Shown: piece after piece, positions 34,266 to 38,425 of the stretch
Layout: every line of letters starts with the position of its first letter
Numbering within the stretch: the stretch's first letter is position 1
NCBI GenBank assembly: GCA_029261965.1
Contig: JAJDAH010000048.1
Span: 1 to 39,599 of the forward strand
Length of the DNA: 39,599 bases
Direction: 5' to 3'
From: Polyangiaceae bacterium
GTDB taxonomy: Bacteria > Myxococcota_A > Polyangia > Polyangiales > Polyangiaceae
Made by a program: the position numbers and the translations under genes
Notes under the pieces: generated by a model
The model's database searches: none
The model's input: the letters and a program-made list of their open reading frames with translations, nothing else
What the model was told of the DNA's origin: nothing

Positions 34266-34360
34266 GGGGACCTAGTCCCCTGGATCTGTGATTGCTTACA
34301 AAACTCGGCGGCCCGTCCGGGGCGAGGCCGCCGGTGTGGTGGACTCCTCGTCCACCACAC
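34266..34360. terminator. Cluster of three hairpins between convergent genes
   Basis: Three perfect stems lie between the radical SAM stop (34239) and the isomerase stop (34362). They are GGGGAC/GTCCCC around CTA (34266-34280), an 8-bp CGGCGGCC stem with 12-nt loop (34306-34333), and a 10-bp GTGTGGTGGA stem with 7-nt loop (34334-34360). The last begins next to the isomerase stop codon. None is followed by a T-run in either direction, so they are terminator-like without the usual U-tract. Confidence 0.6.
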
Positions 34361-35583
34361 TAGCCTGCGAGCGCCTTTTCGACGAACCCTGCTCGGTCTT
34401 GCCCCCAGAAGACGTGCTCGCCCACGACGTAAGACGGCGCGCCGCAGAGACCTCGCCGCTCGGCGGTTTCGGTGGCGTCGCGCAAGGCCAGCTTGATCGA
34501 GTCGTCGTTCGTCCTCGCGAGCAAGGCGGGGTCGACACCGGCGGCCCGACAGCACGCTCGGAGCTCCTCGTCGTCGTCGATGTCCCGGTCCTGTTCCCAG
34601 TAGGCTCGAAAGATTTCGAGACTGAGCGATCCGATGTCGTCGCCCGCCGCGAGGGCGAGTCTGAGCGCGGTCACCGTCCGCATGGGGAAGCGGGACGGAA
34701 AACGGAACGCCAAGCCGTGGCGCGCGGCGAATCGCGCCATGTCGGCGCGGTAGTGCTTCTGTTTCTGCGGAGAGAACGTGGAGATCGGCACGTTCGAAGT
34801 TCCGATCGATCGGAAGAGTGCCCCCAAGAGAAACGGTCGCCAGACGACCTCAACCCGGGATCGAGCTGCCAGACGCTCGACTTGGGTTGCGCCCAGATAG
34901 GCGAACGGGCTCGAAAAGTCGTACCAGAACTCGAATGACGACGCGCGTGGCTCAGCGGGCGTGGACTCTGTCCGGACGGGCATTGGCGGCGTTCCACCGA
35001 GGGCTTCTTCGACGAAGTCCAGCCGGTCCTGTCCCCAGAAGAGCTCTCCGTCGACGAACATTGCCGGGGCGCCGAAAACGCCCCGCGCGATGGCTTCGTC
35101 GGTGCATTCCCGAAGGCGTGCCTTCGCCGCGGGCTCCGATGCGCGCGCCACGAGCGATTTCCCGTCGAGCCCTGCTTGGGTGAGCGCCGTTTCGACCACC
35201 GTCGGCTCCGAGAGATCGCTGCCTTGCACCCAGTAGGCGCGATAGAGCGCGTGGGTGGCCCGCCGCACGTCATCCGAGCACAAGGTGGCCCGGAGAGCCG
35301 TCACGGTCCGATTCGGGTGTCCCGGCGGCTTGTCGAGCGGCACGCCCCAGTGCTCCGCCCAGCGGCCCATGTCGAGCAGGTTTTGGCGAGCGCGAGCGGG
35401 TACTACCGGCGCCTTGCCGGGCGCCGCGTCGCCGAGAGAGTTGAACACTCCGCCGAGCAAAAACGGTTTGTAGACGAGCTTGGCGCCCGTTCTCTCGGCG
35501 AGTGACTCGATCTGGGTGGAGGCGAGGTACGCGTAGGGGCAGGAATAGTCGTAGAAGAATTCGAGCTGAAGCGTCACGGTCAC
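34360..35583 (-). CDS. Tandem-fused DsbA-like isomerase (two HCCA isomerase domains)
   Basis: A 407-residue protein with two complete kappa-GST/HCCA isomerase domains. Domain 1 (about 1-200) has FFYDYSCPYAYLASTQ and GVFGAPAMFVDGELFWGQDR. Domain 2 (about 213-407) has FWYDFSSPFAYLGATQ and GLCGAPSYVVGEHVFWGQDR. Domain 1 keeps a Cys before the Pro of the active loop and domain 2 a Ser. The linker is Pro/Thr/Glu-rich. Ordinary members are single domains of about 200 residues, like the gene at 20124. The GTG start overlaps the TPR stop (GTGA), placing the gene at the end of the DUF4331/TPR operon. The substrate is unknown; glutathione- or disulfide-linked chemistry is likely. Confidence 0.88.
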   Translation of the reverse strand: MTVTLQLEFFYDYSCPYAYLASTQIESLAERTGAKLVYKPFLLGGVFNSLGDAAPGKAPVVPARARQNLLDMGRWAEHWGVPLDKPPGHPNRTVTALRATLCSDDVRRATHALYRAYWVQGSDLSEPTVVETALTQAGLDGKSLVARASEPAAKARLRECTDEAIARGVFGAPAMFVDGELFWGQDRLDFVEEALGGTPPMPVRTESTPAEPRASSFEFWYDFSSPFAYLGATQVERLAARSRVEVVWRPFLLGALFRSIGTSNVPISTFSPQKQKHYRADMARFAARHGLAFRFPSRFPMRTVTALRLALAAGDDIGSLSLEIFRAYWEQDRDIDDDEELRACCRAAGVDPALLARTNDDSIKLALRDATETAERRGLCGAPSYVVGEHVFWGQDRAGFVEKALAG

Positions 35584-36956
35584 TCACCCTTTTTCGAGGG
35601 CTCGATGGGTCCTTCGAGCTCGGCGATCTTCGGGTTCAGCTTCTTGGCTTTCTCGATCAGCTTCTTGGCTTCGTCGCTTTTTTTCTGTGCGGTGCGCACC
35701 TTCGCTGCGGTCCAGAACAGCTCGGCGGTCTTGAACGGGGTCGCGAGGGCTTTTTCGATGCTCGCCCCGGCTTCGTCGACCTTGCCGTTTTCGAGTTGCG
35801 CTCCGGCGAGTGCGACGTAGCTCTTGTAGGTGGGCCGAAGTTCGACGTTCTTCTCGAGCAGCCGGAGCGCGCGTTTGGGATCTCCACCCTCCTCGAGGAA
35901 GAACCCGGCAGCGTGCCAGTACATGGCGTTGGGGTACTTCTTCATCAGCTCTTCGATGCGCTTCTTCGCCTGGTTTCGCAGCTCGTCGGCTTCCTTCCTC
36001 TCTCCCTTCTCACGAAGAACGCCGGACAAGGCCCCGATGAACTCGGGGTCTTGGGTCTGCTCGATGACCTTTCGATAGAGCTCGATCGAGCGATCGGTGT
36101 TTCCGAGCAGGTGCTCGATCTCGGCGAGGTGCTCGATGGCCATGGGGTAGGTGGGGATGCGCTCCATCGCTTCGGTGTAGAATCGCTTCGCCTTTTCGAA
36201 CTGTCCGGTATGCAGCGCGATCAAACCCCGCTGCACGTTGAGCCACGCCACCGGCACCGGGCTGACGTCGCGAAACAAGAGCTCGGCGCGCGCCATGGTT
36301 TTTTCGGCGGCCTTGGGGTTACCCAGATCCATCTCGAGTTGCCCGATGCGCGCGAGGGTGTACAAGTCGCTCCTCTTGCTTTCGGCAGCTCGGAAGAACT
36401 TGATGGCGGGCTCGTGGTTGCCGACGTTCCACTGGTAGTCGGCGATGACGTGCTCGGCGGCGGGCTGCGACCCGAGCTCGATGACGCTCTCGGCGTCCGC
36501 CCGAGCTTGCTCGAACTCGTGCAAGCTGATCCGTGCGCGCGCTCGCAAGAGCAGGCTTCCGGCGTGTTTCGGTTGCCGCTTGAGGGCCTGGTTGGCCATC
36601 TCGATGGCCTCGGCTAGCTGCTCGAGGTCGCCGAAGATCCTCGCCCGCGCCATGAGCGCGTTGCCCGTCATCGAATAGCGCGAAACAATTTCCGGGTTCT
36701 GCTCGATGAGCTTCTTGCCCGCGTCGATTCGGCCATCGAGATTGGCGAGAAAAATCTTCGCCGACGTGGTCGGAAGCTCCTTCTGGTTCCGGGGCCGGTC
36801 GAGCGACTTTCTTTCCGGAGGCGGGGGTCTAGCCGCCGTGGCGGCGGTTTCGATCTGCTGTGTCGCGGGCGTCGGGTCCTTGTCGCAGCCCGTGCAGAAC
36901 CCCGACAGGGTGACGGCTGCGGCGAAGGCGATGGTGGTCGCGTGGCGGTGGGGCAT
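35580..36956 (-). CDS. TPR-repeat lipoprotein
   Basis: A 458-residue exported protein. The signal peptide starts at ATG 36956 and ends at Cys24 (FCTGC; the -3 residue is Cys, an unusual lipobox). From about residue 60 the sequence is a run of tetratricopeptide repeats with the A/G/F/A/P pattern, for example SVIELGSQPAAEHVIADYQW, RIPTYPMAIEHLAEIEHLLG and RPTYKSYVALAGAQLENGKV. TPR arrays scaffold protein complexes in the periplasm. The start is 73 nt from the DUF4331 C-half, across a strong hairpin, with GAGAGGA upstream. Its stop overlaps the isomerase start. DUF4331 genes are often followed by TPR genes, which fits. Confidence 0.88.
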   Translation of the reverse strand: MPHRHATTIAFAAAVTLSGFCTGCDKDPTPATQQIETAATAARPPPPERKSLDRPRNQKELPTTSAKIFLANLDGRIDAGKKLIEQNPEIVSRYSMTGNALMARARIFGDLEQLAEAIEMANQALKRQPKHAGSLLLRARARISLHEFEQARADAESVIELGSQPAAEHVIADYQWNVGNHEPAIKFFRAAESKRSDLYTLARIGQLEMDLGNPKAAEKTMARAELLFRDVSPVPVAWLNVQRGLIALHTGQFEKAKRFYTEAMERIPTYPMAIEHLAEIEHLLGNTDRSIELYRKVIEQTQDPEFIGALSGVLREKGERKEADELRNQAKKRIEELMKKYPNAMYWHAAGFFLEEGGDPKRALRLLEKNVELRPTYKSYVALAGAQLENGKVDEAGASIEKALATPFKTAELFWTAAKVRTAQKKSDEAKKLIEKAKKLNPKIAELEGPIEPSKKGE

Positions 36957-36976
36957 GGCGGTCCTCTCACAAAACA

Positions 36977-37010
36977 CGAACGCCGTGACACTCTCGTGCC
37001 ACGGCGTTCG
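36977..37010 (-). terminator. Perfect 11-bp hairpin between the DUF4331 C-half and TPR genes
   Basis: Arms CGAACGCCGTG (36977-36987) and its complement (37000-37010) enclose a 12-nt loop. In the minus direction the stem is followed by TGTTTTG, a weak U-tract. It can act as a terminator or attenuator that lowers expression of the TPR and isomerase genes relative to the DUF4331 genes, or stabilise the upstream message. Confidence 0.72.
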
Positions 37011-37028
37011 CTCCTTCGGTACTCCCGG

Positions 37029-37772
37029 CTACGGGATCATGTAGGGGAACGTCGTCGTAGCGGTTCCCTCCACGTTGTTGTCGACAGCGTCGGTGACCAC
37101 GGTGGTCGCCGAAGCGTCGACCACCGCCTGCAACGTCGCGTCGATCACGTCTTGATCGAGTGTGCGACCGCCGCAGTTTCCGACCACGGCCGTCTCGACC
37201 GCCAGATAGCCGTCCACGCAGTTGGCGATGCTGACGTCGATCTTCAGGCGATCGTCGTTCAGCACTCCCGCGAGGGTGGCGCTGTTGCCGAGCAGGGCGT
37301 TACCCGCCGTGCCATCCAGGCTGTCGTAGACGTCGAGGAACCCGGTCATTTCCGTGACGAAGTTCCACGGCGGCATGGCCTGGTTGTAGCGGTCCTTGTC
37401 CGCGGCCCCGATGAGGGCCGTGTTGATGGCCGGCCGACCCACGCGGTCGATCTGGCCGGTCGGTGCACCAGCGGCACCGCCCGAGCCCGCAGCGCCCGCA
37501 GCGCCACCTGCTCCGGCCGCACCTCCGGCGCCCGCGGTACCCGCCGTGCCCGCGGTACCCGCCGTGCCCGCCGTGCCAGCAGTGCCAGCGCCACCGCCGG
37601 TGCCACCACCAGAGCCGCCGGTGCCGCCACCAGAGCCGCCGGTGCCGGTGCCCGTGCCGGCGGCGCCTGCGGCGCCGTCGCTGTTTCCGTCGCCGTCGCT
37701 ACAACCAGCGACTGCCAGACCCGAAGCGACCAAGAGACCGCCGAAGAACTTCACCATTTCTGACTTTTTCAT
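37029..37772 (-). CDS. C-terminal half of a DUF4331 protein, as a separate lipoprotein
   Basis: A 247-residue lipoprotein. The signal peptide ends at Cys24 (VAGC). Residues 33-106 are a Gly/Ala/Thr/Ser-only linker with (GTA)n and TGGSGGG repeats. After it, QIDRVGRPAINTALIGAADK and DRYNQAMPPW correspond to the second half of DUF4331 domains, which carry (V/L)SR.G.P.vN.v.i...K..yN. GRTLDQDVIDATLQAVVDA near the end matches the usual NGR.l.DDViD. The first half is encoded by the gene 11 nt upstream. GAGGAG stands 8 nt before the ATG. The function of DUF4331 is unknown; it is an exported beta-rich domain. Confidence 0.8.
   Translation of the reverse strand: MKKSEMVKFFGGLLVASGLAVAGCSDGDGNSDGAAGAAGTGTGTGGSGGGTGGSGGGTGGGAGTAGTAGTAGTAGTAGTAGAGGAAGAGGAAGAAGSGGAAGAPTGQIDRVGRPAINTALIGAADKDRYNQAMPPWNFVTEMTGFLDVYDSLDGTAGNALLGNSATLAGVLNDDRLKIDVSIANCVDGYLAVETAVVGNCGGRTLDQDVIDATLQAVVDASATTVVTDAVDNNVEGTATTTFPYMIP
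37455..37676 (-). repeat. Low-complexity Gly/Ala/Thr linker region
   Basis: Codes residues 33-106 of the DUF4331 C-half lipoprotein. It consists of short in-frame repeats, including TGGSGGG twice and GTA about six times, with near-identical 9-bp codon blocks such as GGTACCGCG and GGCACGGCG. The tract is prone to slippage, and its length likely varies between strains. Such linkers after the lipid anchor are common in myxobacterial lipoproteins. Confidence 0.8.
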
Positions 37773-37783
37773 GGCGTATCTCC

Positions 37784-38425
37784 TCAGGGGATCCGGGTGG
37801 TGGTGCCGTAGACGTCGAGAACCGACGTGCCGGTGAACAAGGCGTTGTCGACCTCGACGACGATCGCCAGGGTGTCGCCGCCAGCAAAGGCGTCGGTCCC
37901 GGTGTTGTCGACGAGCTCACTGGGATCACACGTACCGCCCAAGCAGCTGTTGAGCACCGTCGTGAAGTCGCCCGAGTCGAAGAAGAAGTGGTCGTCGCGG
38001 GTGCCGGCGAACACTCTCATGCCGTTGGCCAAGATGGTGTCGTCGACGACGTCGAACGCCACGGTGTCGGTGGCCGCGCCCAACGTGCACGTGACGTTCT
38101 GAGGCGTTCCGTTGTCGGCCGTGCAGAGAATGGTCTGCTCCACCGGGGTCGTGCTGCTGTCGGCGATGTGGAACCGGTACTCGATCTTGTCCGAGAACGC
38201 GGTGCCGCCGATGCCGCCGACCGTCATGATGAACACGGTTCGGTCGAACGCGGGCCCGGTGTCGGTGCTGCGGAAAACGTAGAGATCGTTGATGTCCGCA
38301 GCCGGGTCGGACCTGACGCCAGGCGCCTCGGCATGGTCGGCGGCTTCGCTCGTGGCGCCCAGGAACAAAAGACCTGCTCCGACGGCGAGCGGACCGCTCA
38401 ACGCAAATAGCCATTGCTTTCGCAT
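37784..38425 (-). CDS. N-terminal half of a DUF4331 protein, secreted
   Basis: A 213-residue exported protein starting at ATG 38425, with GGAGG 8 nt upstream. The signal peptide (MRKQWLFALSGPLAVGAGLL) ends near ATSEAADHAEAPG. DHAEAPGVRSDPAADINDLY and VFRSTDTGPAFD correspond to the DUF4331 opening (SSHREAP....DP.AD.TDvYaF). The middle has ANGMRVFAGTRDDHFFFDSG, like the family's R.DPFFFDl. The protein stops after SVLDVYGTTTRIP, where the family normally continues into the SR.G.P.vN region. That region is in the next gene, 11 nt away. It is the first gene of a minus-strand operon. Confidence 0.85.
   Translation of the reverse strand: MRKQWLFALSGPLAVGAGLLFLGATSEAADHAEAPGVRSDPAADINDLYVFRSTDTGPAFDRTVFIMTVGGIGGTAFSDKIEYRFHIADSSTTPVEQTILCTADNGTPQNVTCTLGAATDTVAFDVVDDTILANGMRVFAGTRDDHFFFDSGDFTTVLNSCLGGTCDPSELVDNTGTDAFAGGDTLAIVVEVDNALFTGTSVLDVYGTTTRIP

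Follow-up and report, generated by a model that had tools for sequence, protein, structure and literature searches.

A DUF4331 domain divided between an exported protein and an adjacent lipoprotein in Myxococcota and other bacteria

Closest described systems and the divided gene pair

The DUF4331 domain (PF14224) is already catalogued; its division over two chains appears to be undescribed, and a search confined to the open PMC literature yielded no paper naming DUF4331 or PF14224. The closest comparison is with single-chain DUF4331 proteins. The present locus shares with them two halves that both exceed the profile cut-off and jointly span most of PF14224, the conserved H-x-D/E-x-P start, the FPYL end, and a TPR neighbor, which accompanies 18 of 22 single-chain loci. 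It differs in having two genes, two export signals, and a lipid anchor plus linker on the second half. One continuous chain does not occur in the window (the whole stretch of 39,599 nucleotides analyzed here, from a Polyangiaceae bacterium), and the PF14224 profile does not require it.

Chaperone-usher pilins provide a second comparison: their Ig-like fold lacks the last strand and is completed by a strand of another chain. A similar completion is proposed here from models with VIA-align Z scores below 8, with the difference that the donor strand would lie inside a helical lipoprotein half rather than in an N-terminal extension. No sequence relation of either protein to these pilins was seen, and no usher or chaperone genes occurred among the Pfam-named neighbors, in the part of the neighbors that was scanned. 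The third comparison is with ATCUN motif proteins, the motif being defined as H2N-X-X-His (PMC7701195). The predicted mature N-terminus of the first DUF4331 half, Ala-Asp-His or Ser-Ser-His, is of this kind, with both cleavage and metal binding predicted by rule.

The gene pair of the window has the following features:

37784..38425, minus strand: gene A, the exported N-terminal DUF4331 half (213 aa; open reading frame, PF14224 match, kept in relatives)
38342..38425, minus strand: signal peptide of A, residues 1-28, with a rule-based AxA-type site SEA|ADH of the signal peptidase I type
38333..38341, minus strand: putative mature N-terminus of A, Ala-Asp-His, residues 29-31, an ATCUN-type X-X-His
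37773..37786, minus strand: stop of A and 11-nt spacer with the GGAG ribosome-binding-like site of B (from the sequence)
37029..37772, minus strand: gene B, the C-terminal DUF4331 half, a lipoprotein (247 aa; open reading frame, PF14224 250-418)
37701..37772, minus strand: lipoprotein signal of B, ending at Cys24 (AVAGC lipobox; from the sequence, with similar signals in other split B proteins)
37455..37700, minus strand: flexible Gly/Ala/Thr-rich linker of B, residues 25-106 (from the sequence)
37233..37247, minus strand: candidate donated strand of B, LKIDV, residues 176-180 (L083 286-290), suggested by the alignment to L083, VIA-align, and couplings

In the Pfam profile search, gene A matches PF14224 at positions 2-85 and 149-236 (whole-protein E 3.5e-16, 59.9 bits against a cut-off of 27), and gene B at positions 250-418 (whole-protein E 1.3e-13, 51.5 bits against the same cut-off). 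The two proteins cover separate parts of the profile and are therefore complementary halves, not duplicates. This agrees with the first-pass annotation, which had read the locus as one DUF4331 domain divided over two adjacent exported chains; the comparison of each half with the PF14224 HMM that it had proposed places them at complementary positions rather than in one shared region. Duplication was rejected because the halves match different PF14224 regions and show no homology to each other, none being found between the A and B profiles (hhalign probability 0.1). No NCBIfam match was found for A or B, and a PF14224 search of the genome assembly (480 contigs) gave no second DUF4331 match elsewhere.

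The TGA of A and the ATG of B are separated by 11 nt, with GGAG immediately past the stop, and each gene has its own Shine-Dalgarno-like sequence. The junction had been described in these terms, with a ribosome-binding-like site and a lipoprotein signal for B and no lipoprotein signal for A, and that description holds. The Gly/Ala/Thr-rich character of the linker is likewise borne out, its length of 74 residues being approximate: 82 residues, mostly Gly, Ala, and Thr, are counted here ahead of QIDRVGRP, compared with a median Cys-to-domain stretch of 46 residues across split B proteins under a rough choice of starts. In L035, L091, L093, and L100, the linkers of split B measure 87-208 residues and are partly Cys-rich, not simple Gly/Ala/Thr. 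A lipoprotein-type signal is present in 97 of 101 split B genes by a loose pattern and in 67 of 80, duplicate loci included, by a strict one. Among the B genes lacking the loose-pattern signal, those of L054 and L185 begin at a contig edge, that of L173 is ambiguous, and the second copy in L097, with a GTG start, looks lipoprotein-like by eye. The cut itself falls at a constant place: the domain of split A ends in a WAsT-R/K strand, and A stops 0-6 residues beyond it in 91 of 92 pairs, the window pair being left out of this count.

Distribution and inheritance of the split

Removal of identical pairs left 93 split and 51 one-chain pairs. Among 97 relatives, PF14224 occurs in 47, of which 22 have a full-length row and 25 part-length rows only; in the phylum of the window, it occurs in 61 of 235 genomes, 26 with a full-length row and 35 with part-length rows only, both sets including the window's own genome. 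The phylum of the Saprospiraceae locus L117, Bacteroidota, has matches in 15 of 118 genomes, among them the centre genome G301, known beforehand to be split; 4 of these carry full-length or nearly full-length rows, and 11 carry rows that are part-length only or stop-interrupted. The DNA-level check of part-length rows covers the fetched regions. The survey of Myxococcota that had been suggested returns the split form, with part-length rows only in 35 of 61 DUF4331-bearing genomes. The view of DUF4331 as normally a one-chain protein is contradicted here by the 93 split pairs and the part-length-only genomes (35/61 and 11/15), the part-length form being the commoner in the sampled Myxococcota and Bacteroidota.

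Part-length matches can also arise when a pseudogene, a frameshift, or an assembly error breaks a one-domain gene, and such matches can resemble the present ones. That a normal DUF4331 gene was broken in this way in the window's genome is extremely improbable: B is equipped with a separate start, lipoprotein signal, and linker, and the same arrangement recurs in the 93 non-identical pairs, which come from several phyla and cluster on the tree. The recurrence of the arrangement in many genomes led to the rejection of frameshift and assembly error, and the earlier argument that a simple frameshift could not have produced B is upheld on the same grounds.

An A-half alignment was used to scan genome contigs of 84,980 species, and the best 80 of 290 loci were used. 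By the taxa given in the records, split pairs occur in Myxococcota, Bacteroidota, Gammaproteobacteria (L085 and the Nevskiaceae locus L151), and Gemmatimonadota (L139); single chains, among the best 80 of the 290 loci, occur in Chloroflexota, Planctomycetota, Acidobacteriota, Actinomycetota, Calditrichota, and others. One split locus, L080, is labelled as a Klebsiella pneumoniae MAG and is presumably a mislabelled bin. A search for related loci with B alone found none. Since the loci used for the tree and the couplings were found through A or PF14224, divergent halves are under-sampled in both. Duplicate loci were kept in the strict B-signal, X-X-His, tree, and neighbor-clustering counts (identical contexts being dropped for X-X-His); eight loci shared by the two collections were removed from the TPR, hairpin, loose B-signal, and His-column counts, and ten duplicate loci from the non-redundant clustering of genes after the TPR gene. 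The split is common to many bacteria and would thus be an old, stable design, as far as the sequences can tell.

The tree comprises 128 concatenated rows: 78 split, 44 single, and 6 one-chain rows with a long insert. The split label changes state 5 times on it, compared with a mean of 39.7 for shuffled labels, and starred branches force 4 of the changes, a pattern from which the split state is read as inherited. The window pair clusters with L042, from the same family, and L074 (98, starred), and the split pairs from Bacteroidota, 12 in all, fall together in a single clade (100, starred) away from the other split pairs. One-chain proteins appear three times inside otherwise split clades: in Lysobacterales with L083, in Chloroflexota L141, and in L084. 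The tree is a quick one with SH-aLRT support alone and no known root, and therefore gives no direction for changes between split and fused states. The halves are separated by 137-155 residues in six Lysobacterales-type fusions and by 44 in L084; in the fusions of L075, L078, L079, L082, L088, and L092, the exact position of the split is occupied by an extra domain-like stretch of about 140 residues. With split and fused versions of the same fold both occurring in nature, the family lends itself to work on how strands are complemented across a membrane anchor.

Among the A rows inspected that had enough downstream sequence, all were followed by B or belonged to a single chain. Fifteen rows had at first appeared as A without B, and these candidates were rejected. 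L175 has a divergent B lipoprotein directly downstream; L109, L111, and L147 (3231-5297) are one-chain proteins in which the B part matches weakly; in L062, part of a B is present where the contig ends; and the remaining rows, judged from coordinates alone, lie close to where the contig or the fetched sequence stops. In Enhygromyxa salina (L097 5884-10306), one A is followed by B, a TPR gene, and two more B-like genes, with no second A there.

Fit between the two halves

Residue couplings and structural models bear on whether the halves assemble. Mean-field couplings over the 128 rows recover antiparallel pairs within A (63-172, 64-171, 67-168, and 59-176) and include inter-half pairs such as 58-288 and 193-286. 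For the 93 split pairs, the mean of the ten highest A-B couplings is 1.34, compared with 0.91 when partners are shuffled freely (0 of 21 shuffles as high) and 1.05 when the shuffling is confined to 12 clusters (0 of 22 as high); these clusters have 35, 25, 12, and fewer members, and relatedness inside them is the remaining confounder. The top-50 mean behaves in the same way. Values as high as the top single A-B coupling arise in 3 of the 22 within-cluster shuffles and in 1 of the 21 free ones. Of the 30 strongest inter-chain pairs, 12 involve B 334-348 rather than the candidate strand, which accounts for 6 (B 286, 288, or 290).

The AlphaFold2 model of the natural fusion L083 (352 aa; 80-row alignment) reaches pLDDT 88.9 and pTM 0.87 over both halves, confidence being low nowhere but in the signal peptide and the junction (pLDDT 64). 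The identity to L083 is 34% for window A and 54% for window B. In this model, the A half is beta and the B half mostly helical, with strands at 210-214 and 286-289. VIA-align relates it to antibody V domains (Z 6.5-7.5); all 50 of the 50 listed rows have an aligned range that extends into the B half and stops there, at 290-321. Window A alone gives a sandwich-like model (pLDDT 75, pTM 0.70), also related to V domains (Z 6.2-6.7); its aligned range ends at its own C-terminus, 211-213, corresponding to about V-domain residue 98-107, again in 50 of 50 listed rows. The two models cover the whole L083 fusion and window A, so that the difference in pLDDT between window A (75) and the fusion (88.9) is an uncontrolled comparison. 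Since all Z scores are below 8, only a common arrangement is claimed for both models. Foldseek returned nothing at E<=0.001 for the L083 and window A models, and a sequence search of solved structures with the A profile gave nothing convincing; this lack of matches does not argue for a new fold.

The simplest reading of the models is that A is an Ig-like beta-sandwich through the F strand, lacking the last strand, and that B supplies a G-like strand at about L083 286-292, that is, from residues 176-180 of window B onward. The gap in A would then be filled by the LKIDV strand of B, a mostly helical half carried on a flexible linker. This strand donation, drawn from the models, has about an even chance of being correct. 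If the strand of B does complete A, the free half would thereby be captured at the membrane by the lipidated half.

Alternatively, the halves may be independent co-operonic domains that do not assemble, the one-chain proteins being fusions of co-expressed domains. The flexible junction (pLDDT 64), which accepts inserts of 137-155 and 44 residues, is what such domains would be expected to show, as is the sandwich-like model of window A alone (pLDDT 75), and the A-B coupling could partly reflect shared descent. Against independence, the fusion model holds pTM 0.87 across both halves, the couplings exceed those of the within-cluster shuffles, the pair is kept together in the examined loci with enough sequence, and A alone aligns only to about V-domain residue 98-107. 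Independent domains are accordingly considered unlikely, and assembly of A and B into one two-chain DUF4331 unit is the favored interpretation, with a probability of roughly 0.75. Reassembly had been raised earlier as a condition only; it gains support from the natural fusions, the fusion model, and the A-B coupling, and stays at the level of an inferred event. Gene-by-gene annotation would call A and B separate or partial DUF4331 proteins, and such pairs should be read as one unit. DUF4331 can now be approached as a two-chain lipoprotein open to testing, for which the cut is defined and a donor strand and an N-terminal metal site are available as candidates.

Candidate metal site and gene neighborhood

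The predicted mature A begins with Ala-Asp-His, which by sequence rules and in view of the neighbors may constitute an ATCUN-type Cu(II)/Ni(II) site. The predicted cleavage site comes from the AxA rule applied to the sequence together with column statistics. Ala, Gly, or Ser stands three positions ahead of the conserved A-half His in 95% of the split contexts (74) and 98% of the single-chain ones (49). Cleavage by the AxA rule would put X-X-His at the predicted mature N-terminus in 66 of the 74 and 48 of the 49, compared with 29/74 and 25/49 for the best other offsets; some of the 74 split contexts are an upstream His picked up by the pattern. Of the rows missed by the His pattern, L050 and L059 have no His, and L141 has the His with no signal peptide seen before it. 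Among the His and Cys columns, only this N-terminal His (97%) exceeds 70%; the His column ranking after it stands at 68%.

Downstream of the pair, the window contains:

36976..37011, minus strand: 16-pair hairpin between B and the TPR gene (MFE z -4.93; contains a G-U pair)
35580..36956, minus strand: TPR gene with a lipoprotein-like signal (Pfam TPR), a kept partner of the A-B pair
34360..35583, minus strand: gene with two DSBA domains (PF01323 twice), overlapping the TPR stop, with the same neighbor in L042

A TPR gene lies directly downstream in 56 of 69 split loci other than the window, in the 18 of 22 single-chain loci mentioned above, and in 5 of 5 long-insert loci; 13 of the 69 split loci lack it. 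These counts are profile-based and cover loci with at least 900 nt downstream, rough gene starts having given 50/69. The TPR protein would be a partner of the A-B lipoprotein. In the window, it is followed by the double DSBA gene, not by a metal transporter, and that gene is probably the end of the operon.

Elsewhere, the slot immediately after the TPR gene can hold members of the HupE_UreJ_2 and NicO families, which transport nickel. A HupE_UreJ_2 gene occupies it on the same strand in six non-redundant loci: L048, L049, L053, L122, L134, and L146. The assignment comes from clustering, with Pfam on L049, L122, L134, and L115 (a copy of L053), with a genome search for L048, and from clustering alone for L146. 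A NicO gene, named by Pfam, does so in two loci, L133 and L144. Across the eight loci, which come from Myxococcota, Planctomycetota, and Chloroflexota, these families keep to one gene slot. When 16 genomes were searched for HupE_UreJ_2, 5 of 24 places were same-strand neighbors of DUF4331 at a distance of no more than about 4 kb, and 19 of 24 did not lie near it; these genomes were hand-picked, and G003, G025, G034, and G079 were known beforehand to have HupE near DUF4331. The open PMC literature searched contained nothing on HupE together with ECF, TPR, and nickel. Given the predicted ATCUN-type N-terminus, the assembled lipoprotein would probably bind, buffer, or hand over divalent metal in the envelope; a metal role for A-B, suggested by sequence rules and gene neighbors, is itself put forward only tentatively.

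The clustered regions also contain regulators. An ECF sigma cluster is present in 23 of 121 clustered regions, and ChrR-cupin or RskA-type anti-sigma clusters in 7, 6, and 4 of the 121, copies included and representatives named by Pfam. An ECF sigma gene with an RskA- or ChrR-type anti-sigma gene stands beside the cassette in several phyla (L117, L089, L137, L144, and other loci); the clustered part of the window contains no such genes. These neighbors hint at stress control in other species. In two Bacteroidota cassettes, a TonB-dependent receptor follows directly after the TPR gene (L104 8551-10773 and L137 8616-10844).

The assembled protein might instead be free of metal and serve as an envelope binding module for a polymer or a partner protein under stress control, a proposal that falls a little short of an even chance. 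Ig-like sandwiches are common binding scaffolds, and the Ig-like arrangement of the models, taken as a common arrangement only, fits such a module, as do the ECF sigma and RskA- or ChrR-type anti-sigma genes near some cassettes, the TonB receptors after the TPR gene, and the many conserved Asp, Arg, Gly, and Phe residues. It sits less easily with the one near-invariant His of the family, which would be the third residue of the mature chain, and with the recurrence of nickel-transport families in one gene slot in three phyla. On the metal side, the most extended proposal is a widespread envelope metal system comprising an ATCUN-bearing soluble chain, a strand-donor lipoprotein, and the TPR protein, with HupE/NicO and ECF sigma/anti-sigma in some lineages and recurrent fission and fusion as the anchoring changed; in this full form, it is an improbable conjecture.

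The hairpin after B perhaps sets the expression of A-B apart from that of the TPR gene. Of 101 split loci, 20 have a perfect stem of at least 9 bp in the first 100 nt downstream of B, compared with about 0.5% in mononucleotide shuffles, a rate that is a lower-bound estimate; the perfect-stem pattern misses the hairpin of the window itself, which contains the G-U pair.
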